Origin: Gemmatimonadaceae bacterium
GTDB taxonomy: Bacteria; Gemmatimonadota; Gemmatimonadetes; Gemmatimonadales; Gemmatimonadaceae
Direction of reading: 5' to 3'
Length of the DNA: 52,031 nucleotides
Assembly (NCBI GenBank): GCA_035606695.1
Contig: DATNEW010000004.1
Span: 1 to 52,031, forward strand
The notes beneath the pieces are model-generated. The model worked only from the letters and a program-made list of their open reading frames with translations, ran no database searches and had not been told where the DNA came from. Each line of letters starts with the position of its first letter. The stretch's first letter is position 1. Positions 2,654 to 50,271 of the stretch are shown here, piece after piece. Both the position numbers and the translations under genes were made by a program.

Positions 2654-3940
2654 TCATCCGCTGCGTTTGCCGAGCCTCGCGTGCAGCGTCACGCGCTTGC
2701 TGTCGCGCAACACGACGATGTCGACCTCATCTCCCGGTTTGTGCGAGTACAGGGCGTTGGAGTACTCGTACAGGTCTTTTACCGGAACGCCGCCGAACTC
2801 GATGATGACGTCGCCCGCCTTGAGACCCGCCGCGTCGGCGGGAGTTCCCGCGCGGACGCCGCTGAGCCTCAAGCCCGGTGTGTCACCGCCGGCCATGTCG
2901 GGAATGGAGCCGAGATACACCTGGCTCCCGCCTTCGCCGGCGTTCATCTGTGGCTTGGCCGGCACGTTCACATAGCTCAGTCGCGCCGGCCGGTCGGCAA
3001 TGCGACGAAGGGCGGCCGCGGCGACGTTCACGACGCGCGCCTCGCCCGCCGCGTTGATCTTGCTCGCGACGTCCGTCGCGCGATGGTAGTCGTCGTGCAG
3101 GTCGGTGAAGAAGAAGAGCACCGGAATCTTCTTCGCGTAGAACGACGTGTTGTCCGACGGTCCGTAGCCGTCGCCCTGCGCGGCGATGTTCAACTTCTCG
3201 GTCGATTGATTCGCGCTGTCGAGCAACGTGGTCAGCTCGATGGCGGTCGCGACGCCATACACGATCAGCCGATCGTTCTTCATGCGGCCGACCATGTCGA
3301 AGTTGAGCATCGCATCCACGCTGTCGAGCGTCGCGGGAAAGTGCTCGACCATGTATTCGGAGCCGAGCAGTCCCTGCTCTTCGCCGCTGAAGTTGGCGAA
3401 GATGATCGAGCGGCGCGCCGGCGAGCGCGCGAAGATCCGCGCCAGCTCGAGCACCGCCGCGGTGCCGGATGCGTTGTCGTCTGCACCGAGACGCAATTCG
3501 CGCGAGTCGGGATCGAGCGCGCCCTCGGTGGACGCGCCGAGATGGTCGAAGTGCGCGCCGACGACGACGAACTGTTCGCGAAGCGCGGGATCGCGACCGG
3601 GCAACACCGCGAACACATTCTGCGTTCGGAGCGATGGACTCGGACCGAAGTGCGCGGGCGGTCGCGCGATGAACCGCTGTTGGAAATCGGTATCGAGCGG
3701 GACGAGGTGCAGCGCCGCGTACCGGCGCGCGATGTATGCGGCGGCGGAGTCGTTGCCTGATGTTCCGGTGAGTCGCCCGGCGAGCGCGGGGCTCGCCAGG
3801 TATTCGATGTCGCGGCGGAGGCGGAGCGAGTCGGCGGCGGTGGCGGGGGTTGGGTGTACGACGCCGCAGCCAATCACCGCCGTCATTCCGAGGAGCGAAG
3901 CGACGAGGAATCTCCCGTCGCGGCGCCGCCGGCTAGCCAT
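2654..3940 (-). CDS. M28 family metallopeptidase with C-terminal PDZ domain, lipoprotein
   Basis: 428 residues. The M28 two-zinc site is complete: His130 (GAHFDHLG), Asp154 (GADDNASG), Glu187/Glu188 (SGEEQG), Asp215 (NFDMVG) and His286 (DDYHRATD). A PDZ domain occupies about 335-420. The signal sequence ends in a VIGC lipobox (Cys25), so it is probably a membrane-anchored exo-aminopeptidase. ATG at 3940 is chosen because the 14 extra codons back to 3982 (reading SFRAQRGIY) come from a dispersed repeat. The signal peptide itself is encoded by the inverted copy of that repeat. Confidence 0.9.
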   Translation of the reverse strand: MASRRRRDGRFLVASLLGMTAVIGCGVVHPTPATAADSLRLRRDIEYLASPALAGRLTGTSGNDSAAAYIARRYAALHLVPLDTDFQQRFIARPPAHFGPSPSLRTQNVFAVLPGRDPALREQFVVVGAHFDHLGASTEGALDPDSRELRLGADDNASGTAAVLELARIFARSPARRSIIFANFSGEEQGLLGSEYMVEHFPATLDSVDAMLNFDMVGRMKNDRLIVYGVATAIELTTLLDSANQSTEKLNIAAQGDGYGPSDNTSFYAKKIPVLFFFTDLHDDYHRATDVASKINAAGEARVVNVAAAALRRIADRPARLSYVNVPAKPQMNAGEGGSQVYLGSIPDMAGGDTPGLRLSGVRAGTPADAAGLKAGDVIIEFGGVPVKDLYEYSNALYSHKPGDEVDIVVLRDSKRVTLHARLGKRSG

Positions 3941-3980
3941 GCGAGTCAGACGGTAGATTCCTCTCTGCGCTCGGAATGAC
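3882..3980. repeat. Inverted pair of dispersed palindromic (REP/BIME-like) repeats
   Basis: Copy one (3882-3913) begins GTCATTCCGAG and ends GAGGAATCT. Copy two (3955-3980) is its inverse, AGATTCCTC to CTCGGAATGAC. Together they form a long hairpin whose loop (3914-3954) holds the M28 start codon. The family is known from translation artefacts such as FRAQRGI and CHSERREES in many environmental genomes. Here copy one is inside the coding sequence. Confidence 0.85.
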
Positions 3981-3983
3981 AAG

Positions 3984-5054
3984 CTACCGCGCCGTAAAGT
4001 CCGTCTTCGCCGTGATGGCTCGGCAGGCTTCCGCCAACAACGTCGACGTCTTGTCGACGTCGTCCAGGCTCACCAGCTCGTTCGGCGAATGCATGTACCG
4101 ATTCGGAATCGACACGAGGCCCGTCGCGACGCCTTCGCGCGAGATGTGAATCGTGTCGGCGTTCGTCGACGTGTCGCGCCCCGCTGCATGCACGGAATAT
4201 TTGATTCCCTGCCGCTCGGCCGTGCTGCGCAGCAGCTCGTACACGACGGGCGAGATCACGGCGCCGCGGCTCAGCACGGGTCCGCCGCCGATCTTGTGAT
4301 CGCCGATCTCTTTCTTCTCGACGGTCGGGTGATCGGTCGCGAAGGTCACGTCGACGACGATCGCCATCGTCGGGTTGATGCAGTTCGTGCAGACGAGCGC
4401 ACCGCCGCCGTGCCACGCGATCTCTTCCTGCGTCGTCGCCGCGGCGACGACGCGGGCGGGTCCGGGATTCTGGGCGTAGCGGCGCAGCGCCTCGAGCACG
4501 ACGAACGCGCCGATGCGATCGTCGATGGAGCGCGACACGATGCGGTTGTTCGGGAAGTCGATCGTCTTCGAGTCGATCACCCCCGGATCGCCGACGCTGA
4601 TGCGCCCTTCCGCCTCGGCGCGATTCGATGCGCCGATGTCGACCCAGATGTCGGTGAACTTGGTCGCGTTGTCGCGATCCGACGCTTTCATGAGGTGAAT
4701 CGGCTTCTTGCCGACGACGCCGACCACGTCGCCGCCTTTGCCGAGGAAGCGAATGCGTTGGCCGACGAGGACCTGGCAGTCCCAGCCTCCGATCGCGGAC
4801 GGATAGACGAAACCGTCATCGTCGATGTACTGCACGATGAGACCGATCTCGTCGATGTGGCCATCGAGCATGATCGTCGGCGAGCCGCCGGGATTGATCT
4901 CGGCCATACTGTTGCCGGCGACGTCGGTCGTGACGCGGTCGGCGAACGTGGATGCTTCCTCGCGCCAAACGCGCGCGGCCGGCCCTTCGTAGCCGGACGG
5001 GGCGGGCGTATCGAGCAAGCGCTTCAGGAAAGCCAGCGATGTCGGGCTGAGCAT
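3984..5054 (-). CDS. M42 family metallopeptidase (glutamyl aminopeptidase/FrvX-like)
   Basis: 356 residues, the usual length for M42 dinuclear aminopeptidases. Metal and catalytic residues are visible: His66 (DGHIDEIG), Asp179 (RSIDDRIG), Glu210/Glu211 (TTQEEIAW), Asp235 (VVDVTFATD) and His322 (RYMHSPNE). These cytoplasmic enzymes form large assemblies that trim peptides from the N-terminus. There is no signal peptide. It heads the minus-strand run with the M28 peptidase 43 bp downstream, so the pair may serve successive steps of peptide breakdown. Confidence 0.92.
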   Translation of the reverse strand: MLSPTSLAFLKRLLDTPAPSGYEGPAARVWREEASTFADRVTTDVAGNSMAEINPGGSPTIMLDGHIDEIGLIVQYIDDDGFVYPSAIGGWDCQVLVGQRIRFLGKGGDVVGVVGKKPIHLMKASDRDNATKFTDIWVDIGASNRAEAEGRISVGDPGVIDSKTIDFPNNRIVSRSIDDRIGAFVVLEALRRYAQNPGPARVVAAATTQEEIAWHGGGALVCTNCINPTMAIVVDVTFATDHPTVEKKEIGDHKIGGGPVLSRGAVISPVVYELLRSTAERQGIKYSVHAAGRDTSTNADTIHISREGVATGLVSIPNRYMHSPNELVSLDDVDKTSTLLAEACRAITAKTDFTAR

Positions 5055-7595: not shown

Positions 7596-8347
7596 TATTT
7601 CTTTCGGTCGCTCCCCGGCAGCCGCGTCCAGATCACGACCGTGCCGCAGATGGCCGTGCTGTGCACCCGATTGAATTCCGGCGGCAAGCCGGCGGAGCCC
7701 GCGTAGAGCTCCACGCCTTCGACGTCGCCCGGCGGCATGTCGTCGATGCTGAACCCGTACACCTCCATGCCGTCCACGTAGAACTGCGGCGGGCAGTTGC
7801 CTCGCGATACGCGAGAGAAGCGGAGCGACGTGCGGCCGTTGTCGCCGGGAATGAGCACCGTGCCGGGGATCATCCGAACCATGTCGCTCAAGAGCATCGG
7901 GTGCCGATCCTCGATCTGCGACCGGGTGATGAAGTGTCCGATGCCCTGCCGGCGGCGCGTCTCGAACGCGAACAGCTCGTGCAGGTGGTCGCGATCGGCC
8001 TGGACGACGACGCCGGTCAACTGCTGGGCGACGACGCCGAGCTCGATCTCGACCTCCGTCGTGTCGGCCGGTGGAATCTGAACGCCGAGGATGACGGGGC
8101 TGTACGCCAATCGCCGCACGCTCAAATCCGCCGGCCCGGCCGGCAGGCCGGCGAGGGTGAAGCGGCCGAGCGAATCGGTGCGTACCGATTTGGCGGCCGT
8201 GATCGCCGTGACTTCGACGTTCTCGAGCACGTTGCCGATGCTGTCGCGCACCACCCCGGCGACGGCGCCCGCCCGAGCCTGGGCATGGGCCGTGGCGACG
8301 CCGGCCATCAGGCAGAGTTGAGCAATTGTTAATACCGCTTTGCTCAT
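7595..8347 (-). CDS. Carboxypeptidase-regulatory plus TonB-receptor plug domain protein, no barrel
   Basis: 250 residues. A signal peptide (about 1-23) is followed by a carboxypeptidase regulatory-like beta-sandwich (about 28-110, GVVRDSIGNVLENVEV...GRFTLAGLPAG) and a plug-like domain (about 115-240) including YVDGMEVY and DMPPGDVEGVELYAGSAG. TonB-dependent receptors continue into a 22-strand barrel of about 500 or more residues; this protein stops after the plug. It is either a natural plug-only family or a truncation. It is divergent from the OPT transporter gene. Confidence 0.88.
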   Translation of the reverse strand: MSKAVLTIAQLCLMAGVATAHAQARAGAVAGVVRDSIGNVLENVEVTAITAAKSVRTDSLGRFTLAGLPAGPADLSVRRLAYSPVILGVQIPPADTTEVEIELGVVAQQLTGVVVQADRDHLHELFAFETRRRQGIGHFITRSQIEDRHPMLLSDMVRMIPGTVLIPGDNGRTSLRFSRVSRGNCPPQFYVDGMEVYGFSIDDMPPGDVEGVELYAGSAGLPPEFNRVHSTAICGTVVIWTRLPGSDRKK

Positions 8348-8499
8348 TATACTTCCTCCGGAAGCCGGCCGCGGTCACGCCGCTTGGCCGGGACCCCTCG
8401 GAACAATACTTCACGGTGCGAATCCCTGGCGAGACCCATACGTTCGTCGGACTCGCCCGGGCTGTCCCTCCGCTCGCCTTCAGGTGTAAGATTGGGCCC

Positions 8500-10473
8500 A
8501 TGAAACCCAAAGAACTGACCCTGCGCGGACTGATCCTCGGCGCGCTCATCACGACGGTGTTCACCGCCGCCAACGTGTATTTGGGCCTCAAGGTCGGGCT
8601 CACGTTCGCGTCGTCGATCCCGGCCGCCGTGATCTCGATGGCGATCCTGAGCGCCGTGAAGGATTCCTCCATTCTCGAGAACAACATCGTTCAGACCGTT
8701 GCCTCGGCAGCGGGGACGCTGTCGGCGATCATCTTCGTGTTGCCTGGTCTGGTGATCATCGGCTGGTGGAAGGGCTTTCCATTCTGGCAATCATTTTTCA
8801 TCTGTTTGAGTGGTGGCGTGCTCGGCGTGTTGTTCACGATTCCGCTGCGGCGCGCATTGGTGACGACGTCCGACCTGCCGTATCCCGAAGGCGTCGCGGC
8901 GGCGGAGGTGTTGAAGGTTGGCTCGGGCACGCGCGGCGAGGTTTTAGATCCCTCGCTCCGCTCGGGACAGGCTGGCGAATCGCGCGAAGGACTGGTGGCC
9001 GTGATCCTGGGCGCCGTGGCGTCAGCGGGGCTGGCGATCGTGAGCGCGACACAACTCATCGCCGGTGAGTTCACGGGTTTCTTCAACATCGGCGGCGGTG
9101 CGGCGAGCGGTTACGACTTCGCGTGGTCACTTGCGCTGCTCGGCGCGGGCCATCTCGTCGGCCTTTCGGTGGGCATGGCGATGTTGACGGGACTGATCAT
9201 CGCGTGGGGGATTGCGGTTCCGATTCTCACGCACGCGGCGCCGCTCCAGGCGGGCGCGGATCTCGCGGCGCATACGAGCGCCATCTGGCGGACGCAGGTG
9301 CGGTTCATCGGCGCCGGCGCCATCGCGATTGCCGCGATCTACACACTCGCGCGGCTCGCGAAGCCCGTGCTCGGCGGGTTGGTCAGCACCCTGGCCGCCT
9401 CGAAGTCGAAAGTCGTCGGCGACGATTTGGATCGCGATCTGGCGCCGGTGTGGATCTACGCGCTCGCGTTCGTGTGCGCCGTCATCGCCGCGTGGCTCGC
9501 GTTCAGCTTCGCGCGCTCGACCGTGCTCGCGAGCAACGCGGTGCTGTTGACCGCCGTCACCGTGCCGTTCGTCGTGCTCGTCGGATTTCTGATCGCCGGC
9601 ATCTGCGGGTACATGGCCGGACTGATTGGCGCCTCGAACAGCCCGATCTCGGGCGTCGGCATTCTCTCGATCGTGATCTGCGCGTCGGTGCTCGTCGTCG
9701 CGGTGAAGCCGTCCACGCCGGATGCGCGGTCGGCGCTGGTGGCGTTCTCGCTCTTCATCACCGCGATCGTCTTCGCGTGCGCGACGATCTCGAACGACAA
9801 CTTGCAGGATCTGAAAACAGGACAGCTCGTCGGTGCGTCGCCAATGCGGCAGCAGGTTGCGCTGATCGTCGGCGTCGCGGCGGGCGCGGCGGTGATTCCC
9901 TGGGTGCTCAATTTGCTCGCGCACGCGTACGGCTTCGCCGGCGCGGCGAATGTCGGTGTCGTCGCGCCTCATCCGCTCGCGGCGCCGCAAGCCACGCTCA
10001 TCTCGGCGCTCGCGAAGGGTGTGATCGGCGGCAATCTCGAGTGGGCGATGATCGGCATCGGCGCGCTCGTCGGCGTCGGCCTGATCGTTCTCGACGAAAT
10101 CCTCGGCGCGATGAAAAGGCTTCGCATCCCGCCGTTGGCGGTGGGTATCGGCATCTACCTGCCGATGTCGGCGACGTTCGCGGTGGTCGTCGGCGCGATC
10201 GTGTCGCACTGGTACCTTGGACGAATTCGTACCGCGCCAGACCCGGAACGCGCGGAGCGGCTTGGAACGCTCGTCGCGTCGGGGTTGATCGTGGGCGAGA
10301 GCATCTGGGGCGTGATCAACGCCGGCCTGATCGTGGCGCTGGTGAAAGATGCGCCGATCGCGCTCGTCCCCGAGACCTTCGCGCCCGCGCCGTGGCTTGG
10401 GACGTTCGCCTTCATCGCGATCGTGGTGCTGCTCTACGGATGGATGCTGCGCCGCGCGAGGGCGATGCAGTAA
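8500..10473 (+). CDS. OPT family oligopeptide transporter
   Basis: 657 residues, almost entirely hydrophobic, with about 14-16 transmembrane helices. Signature stretches are the start LTLRGLILGALITTVFTAANVYLG, then DLPYPEGVAAAEVL and a late IPPLAVGIGIYLPM. OPT proteins import oligopeptides or metal chelates by proton coupling. ATG at 8500 is chosen because homologous OPT N-termini begin like MKPKELTLRG; upstream in-frame sequence is not transporter-like. An insert of about ten residues after PYPEG comes from a repeat. The stop overlaps the start of the M61 peptidase gene (TAATG), implying coupled translation. Confidence 0.92.
   Translation: MKPKELTLRGLILGALITTVFTAANVYLGLKVGLTFASSIPAAVISMAILSAVKDSSILENNIVQTVASAAGTLSAIIFVLPGLVIIGWWKGFPFWQSFFICLSGGVLGVLFTIPLRRALVTTSDLPYPEGVAAAEVLKVGSGTRGEVLDPSLRSGQAGESREGLVAVILGAVASAGLAIVSATQLIAGEFTGFFNIGGGAASGYDFAWSLALLGAGHLVGLSVGMAMLTGLIIAWGIAVPILTHAAPLQAGADLAAHTSAIWRTQVRFIGAGAIAIAAIYTLARLAKPVLGGLVSTLAASKSKVVGDDLDRDLAPVWIYALAFVCAVIAAWLAFSFARSTVLASNAVLLTAVTVPFVVLVGFLIAGICGYMAGLIGASNSPISGVGILSIVICASVLVVAVKPSTPDARSALVAFSLFITAIVFACATISNDNLQDLKTGQLVGASPMRQQVALIVGVAAGAAVIPWVLNLLAHAYGFAGAANVGVVAPHPLAAPQATLISALAKGVIGGNLEWAMIGIGALVGVGLIVLDEILGAMKRLRIPPLAVGIGIYLPMSATFAVVVGAIVSHWYLGRIRTAPDPERAERLGTLVASGLIVGESIWGVINAGLIVALVKDAPIALVPETFAPAPWLGTFAFIAIVVLLYGWMLRRARAMQ
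8943..8977 (+). repeat. Dispersed palindromic repeat inserted in frame in the OPT gene
   Basis: TTAGATCCCTCGCTCCGCTC and the following GGGACAGG match a common dispersed repeat whose translations read DPSLRSGQAG on one strand and CPERSEGS on the other. The reading frame of the transporter stays open across it, in the loop after the PYPEG motif. Confidence 0.8.
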
Positions 10474-15657: not shown

Positions 15658-15703
15658 GTCATCCCGAGCGACTCCGGCGCTTCGCGCCGCCGCGCGGGAT
15701 GAC
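15658..15703. repeat. Dispersed palindrome between fadN and fadA
   Basis: GTCATCCCG (15658-15666) and CGGGATGAC (15695-15703) frame a GC-rich centre with its own inner stem. Its translation in one frame reads CHPERLRRFAPPRGMT, the hallmark of the same repeat class as 3882-3980. It may attenuate or stabilise the fadN-fadA transcript. Confidence 0.8.
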
Positions 15704-15725: not shown

Positions 15726-16898
<1,173 letters not shown>

Positions 16899-47850: not shown

Positions 47851-47951
47851 GCGCAACGCCCTATCTGGGGCTGCAAGGAAGTCTAATAAGCGGCGCGGGC
47901 GGAGCCCGCGCCAGTCCGCAGATTCCTTGTCAGCTTCAGCGTTCGTTAGCT
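47851..47951 (-). repeat. attC-like recombination site 1 (101 bp)
   Basis: The plus-strand ends are GCGCAAC and GTTAGCT, matching inverted core sites (RYYYAAC/GTTRRRY) imperfectly on the left. Inside are matching arms CTGCAAGGAA and TTCCTTGTCAG and a GC hairpin GCGCGGGC/GCCCGCGC. It aligns base for base in length with the sites at 49337 and 50171. It lies downstream of the NTF2-like gene in that gene's direction. Confidence 0.82.
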
Positions 47952-48045
47952 GACTCGGTTATGGACACTCGAATTACGCAACTCGGACGGCCTCTCGATT
48001 CTCGTCGTACATCAGATGCGGCCGCCCCCGGCCCGATGCGAGACG

Positions 48046-49336: not shown

Positions 49337-49437
49337 GGCTGACCCCTGAGCTCAGCTGCAAGGAGGCCCAATAAGAGCGCGCGGCGAAGCCGCGTGCAAC
49401 TCCGCAGCCTACTTGTCAGCTGCAGCGTCCGTTAGCC
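49337..49437 (-). repeat. attC-like recombination site 2 (101 bp)
   Basis: Core ends are GGCTGAC and GTTAGCC. The arms are CAGCTGCAAGGAGG and TACTTGTCAGCTG, and the central hairpin is CGCGCGGC/GCCGCGTG. It lies between the antitoxin promoter region and the unknown gene's stop. Confidence 0.85.
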
Positions 49438-50170: not shown

Positions 50171-50271
50171 GGCTAACGCCTTAGCTCAGCTGCAAGGAGA
50201 CCCAATATGAGCACGTGGCGAAGCCACGTGCAATTCCGCAGACTCCTTGTCAGTTTCAGCGTTCGTTAGAT
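50171..50271 (-). repeat. attC-like recombination site 3 (101 bp)
   Basis: The best-preserved copy. Core ends GGCTAAC (50171-50177) and GTTAGAT (50265-50271); arms GCTGCAAGGAG and CTCCTTGTCAG; central hairpin GCACGTGGC/GCCACGTGC. It lies 13 bp downstream of the two-gene unit's second stop. Confidence 0.88.

Follow-up and report, generated by a model that had tools for sequence, protein, structure and literature searches.

The window analysed here is a 52,031-nt stretch of contig DATNEW010000004.1 from a Gemmatimonadaceae bacterium (GCA_035606695.1), in which a dispersed palindromic element lies in frame at the beginning of an M28 peptidase gene. A palindrome had been claimed at 3882-3980 in an earlier note on this DNA, and it is present at exactly those positions, with arms at about 3882-3919 and 3949-3980. 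The features of the locus, all on the minus strand, are as follows.

2654..3982 (-): M28 family peptidase with a PDZ domain, predicted lipoprotein (Pfam PF04389, E 4.7e-43; PF13180)
3984..5054 (-): M42 peptidase gene, immediately upstream of M28 (Pfam PF05343, E 3.6e-77), with the same gene order in the congeners G001 and G002
3882..3980 (-): 99-bp dispersed palindrome that the M28 gene reads in frame; its ends GTCATTCCGAG / CTCGGAATGAC match those of a family spread over the genome
3949..3980 (-): outer arm, the 5' one of the M28 mRNA; frame SFRAQRGIYRL, basic, putative n-region
3882..3919 (-): inner arm, frame GRFLVASLLGMT, putative hydrophobic core
3881..3910 (-): FLVASLLGMT codons, putative element-encoded h-region by translation, uncharged run of 9 residues
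3866..3880 (-): AVIGC codons, retained native lipobox (Cys codon 3866-3868), matching TIAGC in the G001 orthologue (L093) and the lipobox in other orthologues
3980..3982 (-): TTG, candidate start at the element edge, 1 nt after the M42 stop (3984-3986)
3938..3940 (-): in-frame ATG, alternative candidate start at the hairpin apex (MASRRRRDGRFLVASLLGMTAVIGC)

By inspection, the M28 N-terminus (MASRRRRDGR-FLVASLLGMTAVIG-C) consists of a basic n-region, a hydrophobic core and a lipobox Cys. The FLVASLLGMT core leading to the lipobox, as previously proposed, is borne out, since the inner arm is read in the M28 frame and AVIGC follows directly. We infer that M28 is a lipoprotein in which RFLVASLLGMT of the element feeds the native lipobox, with lipidation predicted from this motif. 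The proposed placement of the hairpin loop over the M28 start codon needs one refinement: the in-frame ATG is indeed in the apical part of the hairpin, but the TTG, which shares its G with the element end, appears at least as likely to be the start. It is credible because other genes here (cytochrome c, GH88 and DUF4861) start just upstream of an element. Either start keeps the element-encoded core intact.

The congener G001 has the same M42-M28 order without the repeat, and this repeat-free orthologue, a type of comparison that the earlier note had suggested, does not share the signal, as it would have to for the note's idea to fail on this point: its own is an ordinary, unrelated lipoprotein signal (MSVLRLPGDSAARRITNAILGALTIAGC). 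G002, also with the same gene order, carries a different 67-bp palindrome at the same place, reading ...GSFAALRMT-LVLAC. Outside the genus, M28 orthologues have mostly ordinary signals, many of the lipoprotein type. In this genome, G001 and G002, the M42 stop and the M28 lipobox are a similar distance apart, which indicates that the element replaced the region rather than lengthened it.

The palindromic element and its family

In the whole genome (5.9 Mb, 99% complete), GTCATTCCGAG occurs in 55 forward and 59 reverse copies and the half-site GTCATYCCGAG has 202 + 198 matches (about 400 half-sites), while the same pattern reversed has none. A chance palindrome is thus ruled out (114 and 400 matches against 0 for the control). 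A sample of 2.43 Mb (41% of the genome) contains 239 outward halves, against 0 for the reversed pattern. Copies are inverted pairs with the tags outermost, mostly 92-104 bp from end to end; their arms are conserved and their middles vary. Congeners have from 5 to 152 half-sites. T or C precedes 205 of 227 half-sites (90%), giving the tag TGTC/CGTC. In consensus-like units, the stem is formed by ATTCC/GGAAT (5 bp, beginning AT), two mismatches, and then 2 bp with a 3-nt loop, and the stem energies are weak (z -0.6 to +0.7). There is no CCA consensus where an unpaired CCA-like tail was looked for, the units ending in GGAATCT....

Target-site duplications of 5-9 bp were found in 0 of 112 elements and those of 2-4 bp in 1-2 of 112, and their lack among these elements rules out a miniature inverted-repeat transposable element of a DDE transposon. 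The Y1 transposase profile PF01797, that of the transposase RAYT, has no match in this 99% complete genome, while the same profile was found in 5 control genomes, so that a REPIN mobilised by RAYT was also rejected. The family is REP-like (repetitive extragenic palindrome) by its sequence; we did not file it as a CGTC-tagged REP because of the two stem mismatches and the lack of a CCA tail. The exact 32-nt inner arm is present at about 80 loci in many phyla (Acidobacteria, Ignavibacteria, Desulfobacteraceae, Clostridia and others), among which no convincing signal-peptide fusion was seen; hence, generality outside the genus is not claimed. No paper on this element family came up in a literature search by motif and for signals derived from repeats.

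Two other stretches of the window resemble the element. One, at 8945-8975 (GATCCCTCGCTCCGCTCGGGACAGG), looks like half an element; it is in frame within a transporter-like open reading frame (8326-10473) and reads LDPSLRSGQA, perhaps an intragenic remnant of a related repeat. At 15659-15703, a shortened palindrome (GTCATCCCGAGCG...CGCGCGGGATGAC) is immediately upstream of an ATG near 15727.

The M28-sense RNA of the element has a predicted fold of -51 kcal/mol (z -3.4 against shuffles), and on this fold prediction a hairpin control of M28 translation is plausible. Ribosomes restarting at the TTG beside the M42 stop would open the hairpin during its translation. The element could act mainly at the RNA level, with the strong hairpin over the start region tuning the stability or translation of the second gene and the coding being incidental. 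The positions of the family are consistent with this, since element ends are found more often beside the 3' end of a gene than beside the 5' end (141 against 90), as is the case for REPs in general. On the other hand, such a role leaves unexplained the replaced native cores and retained cleavage sites described below, and the palindrome of G002 at M28 is shorter and of another type. We consider a mainly RNA-level role unlikely, although it is compatible with a coding role and the two are not exclusive.

Predicted signal-peptide cores encoded by the element

Three frames exit the element end: the TGA in GGAATGAC stops the first, the second gives a hydrophilic ...RFAPRND, and the third, the GMT frame, reads ...RSLAxLGMT or ...RFLVASLLGMT. 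The mean Kyte-Doolittle value of the last 10 residues is 0.31 in the GMT frame against -1.01. Many copies keep this frame open from one end of the element to the other. Its first half is then basic (VIPSxARNL... or SFRAxRGI...), and its second half is hydrophobic and follows the pattern R-S/F-L-A/V-x-L-G-M-T. The last ATG of the element (GGAATGAC) is apparently the start codon of the cytosolic LarC and NuoF (L226:17958-19202 and L222:818-2155), repeats here donating start codons; LarC then reads MTKIAILDPFSG and NuoF reads MTDVPQKGD, with the next start 169 nt further.

Genes beginning beside an element were surveyed in the 2.43-Mb sample, where a coding-frame score based on the codon usage of the genome itself was used in place of a gene caller. 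At least eight exported proteins have signal cores from elements: M28 and the seven below, given as the fusion up to the end of the element and the residues that follow.

GH3: RRERRFLAALGMT, then MLLPLQPAVAQQ
GH10: MRSLAALGMT, then ALVTAC
GH28: GSLAALLLGMT, then GALHAQ
DUF4861: ARSLAVLALLGLGTT, then SVRAQ
GH88: ARSLALLALGMT, then APLQAQ
HlyD-type fusion protein: RDARFLASLGMT, then GIALAAC
cytochrome c: ARSLVAAFLGMT, then MAGC

Five of the eight are within 45 kb on contig C17, with GH28, DUF4861 and GH88 as near neighbours. The idea of an export signal supplied by the repeat in M28 gains support from these cases, as at least seven further exported proteins in this genome show the same replacement. 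A metallo-beta-lactamase (C1:208856) is a less certain ninth case kept outside the core set, and a match inside a TonB receptor (C17:83010) was discarded as a chance match.

Orthologues were compared for seven of the eight fusions (all but GH3), and their relatives have ordinary signals without the element. In six conserved genes (cytochrome c, GH88, DUF4861, HlyD-type, GH28 and M28) the element is inserted in frame, is absent from orthologues and is probably translated. Retained native starts are clear in three of the genes, cytochrome c, GH88 and DUF4861, where the native hydrophobic core is gone, the element is in frame and the native cleavage site comes 3-5 residues on. The cytochrome c gene has a coupled GTG AGC start, as do the four congener loci examined. 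This genome alone has about 30 element codons separating start and lipobox, and it lacks the native core (e.g. AGTVVLAVALTG): the protein reads VSDRRAV[SFRAKRGISRPERALYPSARSLVAAFLGMT]MAGC, against VSDNVGFARRAGTVVLAVALTGC in G004. DUF4861 shares the ribosome-site context GAGGGAAxTGAAATG with its G004 counterpart, where the signal reads MTRHLGLVLAGIVAVAPAAAAQ; the protein here reads MREMSVTPSEL[VIPSAARNL...ARSLAVLALLGLGTT]SVRAQ. The GTG start of GH88 is kept; G001 and G004 have no element, G005 carries a different one, and G002 reads VNQLRNSLALLGMTAAAASAQ, which may be an element remnant. GH28 and the HlyD-type protein have ordinary signals in four congeners, and GH10 has them in its relatives. 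Different elements are present in different congeners at three genes (M28 in this genome and G002; GH88 and DUF4861 in this genome and G005), which suggests repeated insertion or turnover at these sites. Loci L354 and L362 (G005) and L092 (G002) are those in which the same gene starts are occupied by different element copies.

These comparisons very probably reflect a recurrent replacement of signal-peptide cores by the REP-like palindrome, with export and lipidation predicted from the encoded proteins. We propose that the palindrome, about 92-104 bp long and made of a head-to-head pair of CGTC/TGTC-tagged hairpin units, would insert near gene starts. When it lies in the GMT frame of a gene for an exported protein, after the start codon and before the cleavage region, the translated element would act as the n- and h-regions of a Sec or lipoprotein signal peptide, and the native hydrophobic core, made redundant by the one supplied, would be lost. 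Insertion would have come first and the loss of the native core after it.

The element could alternatively be a tolerated non-coding leader, with translation beginning downstream of it. Many N-terminal REPs may be extragenic, with translation possibly starting downstream (Di Nocera et al. 2013, PMC3733652), and several cytosolic genes of this genome (LarC, UMP kinase, radical SAM) apparently start at the last ATG of the element or after it. However, the next in-frame start is 184 nt past the element in GH28 and 52 nt in GH88, starts downstream of the element in M28 (MTAVIGC..., or a GTG at +4) leave no signal peptide although its orthologues look like lipoproteins, and cytochrome c and DUF4861 have kept the native start, along with its context, upstream of the element. 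This makes a non-coding leader very improbable.

We also find it improbable that the insertions are translated in frame but damage the signals, the fusions being mildly deleterious survivors whose proteins are poorly exported or cytosolic. Some arms are short (RFLAALGMT, uncharged run of 7), and export of the fusions is a prediction. Nevertheless, the C or AxA-Q cleavage sites are kept 3-7 residues past the element in most fusions, the frames are open over their full length, and the native cores are gone instead of drifting beside the element. The arms also exceed the family average: compared with the other 230 arms, those of the eight exported fusions have higher hydrophobicity (p 1.9e-4), and their uncharged runs are longer (p 5.9e-5). 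In the cytosol, moreover, there would be no use for exported glycosidases, an envelope fusion protein or a periplasmic cytochrome.

Some points weigh against the replacement of signal cores or limit its reach. The exported set was judged by eye from the Pfam family and cleavage site. Exported and cytosolic fusions in the same frame do not differ significantly in hydrophobicity (p 0.11) or uncharged run (p 0.09; n=8 and 8), so that refinement after insertion is not supported and good arms may have been either chosen or refined. Element-encoded signal cores were found in 9 of 22 open GMT-frame neighbours (the ninth being the metallo-beta-lactamase) against 0 of 24 in other frames (p 5e-4), a comparison that is partly built in, since the GMT frame alone is hydrophobic. 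In M28 the native start is not alignable, and either the TTG or the ATG may be the start. The elements in congeners may come from one insertion or from several.

Elsewhere in the window, between minus-strand genes, there are three imperfect repeats, two of about 100 nt (49337-49435 and 50171-50269) and a shorter one (47907-47954). They resemble integron attC sites (e.g. minus strand ATCTAAC...GTTAGCC), and the genes between them would be cassettes.

Known systems and significance

Bacterial REP-like repeats are usually seen as selfish or as acting at the RNA level, and their N-terminal overlaps as annotation errors. CGTC-tagged REPs (PMC3733652) have the tag CGTC/TGTC, a stem of 8-9 bp beginning AT, a CCA-like tail and head-to-head dimers, with no dedicated transposase known. 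The present element shares the tag, the dimers and the lack of a known dedicated transposase, and its weak predicted stem also seems to begin with AT, but that stem contains two mismatches and a clear CCA tail is absent. In that work most N-terminal REPs were regarded as probably non-coding, unlike the coding reading proposed here. REPINs are likewise dispersed inverted hairpin pairs, but they go with RAYT, whose profile has no match in this genome.

Rickettsia palindromic elements (RPE; Ogata et al. 2000, reviewed in PMC10969869 and PMC2229807) are also palindromic repeats inserted in frame, tolerated and translated in unrelated conserved proteins. RPEs are described as insertions, without an assigned function, in many proteins, whereas the present element is N-terminal and would take over the hydrophobic core of the export signal. 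Yersinia YPO1552 is one predicted case of a fusion with a repeat, RU-2 (YPAL), in which the homologues have unrelated signals (Delihas 2007, PMC2759123). It is the same kind of event as the present one, but it concerns one small putative exported protein and a different family of repeats. In the present genome the event appears to be recurrent, with at least eight enzymes and envelope proteins, all conserved, involved, and the replaced native core is visible through orthologues.

As conserved gene starts and cleavage sites bracket the elements, they would be a concrete and recurrent source of new signal peptides, and the gain and replacement of export signals become testable. Such fusions would explain N-termini ending in RFLASLGMT-like sequence and warn against trimming them as artefacts. 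More tentatively, and with considerable doubt, the family might be a mobile signal-peptide cassette whose hydrophobic frame is one reason for its persistence, having repeatedly and independently taken over export signals in the genus, above all in a region for pectin and xylan degradation, so that many secreted proteins would share a repeat-derived signal. Repetitive DNA apparently acts here as a reusable export tag.
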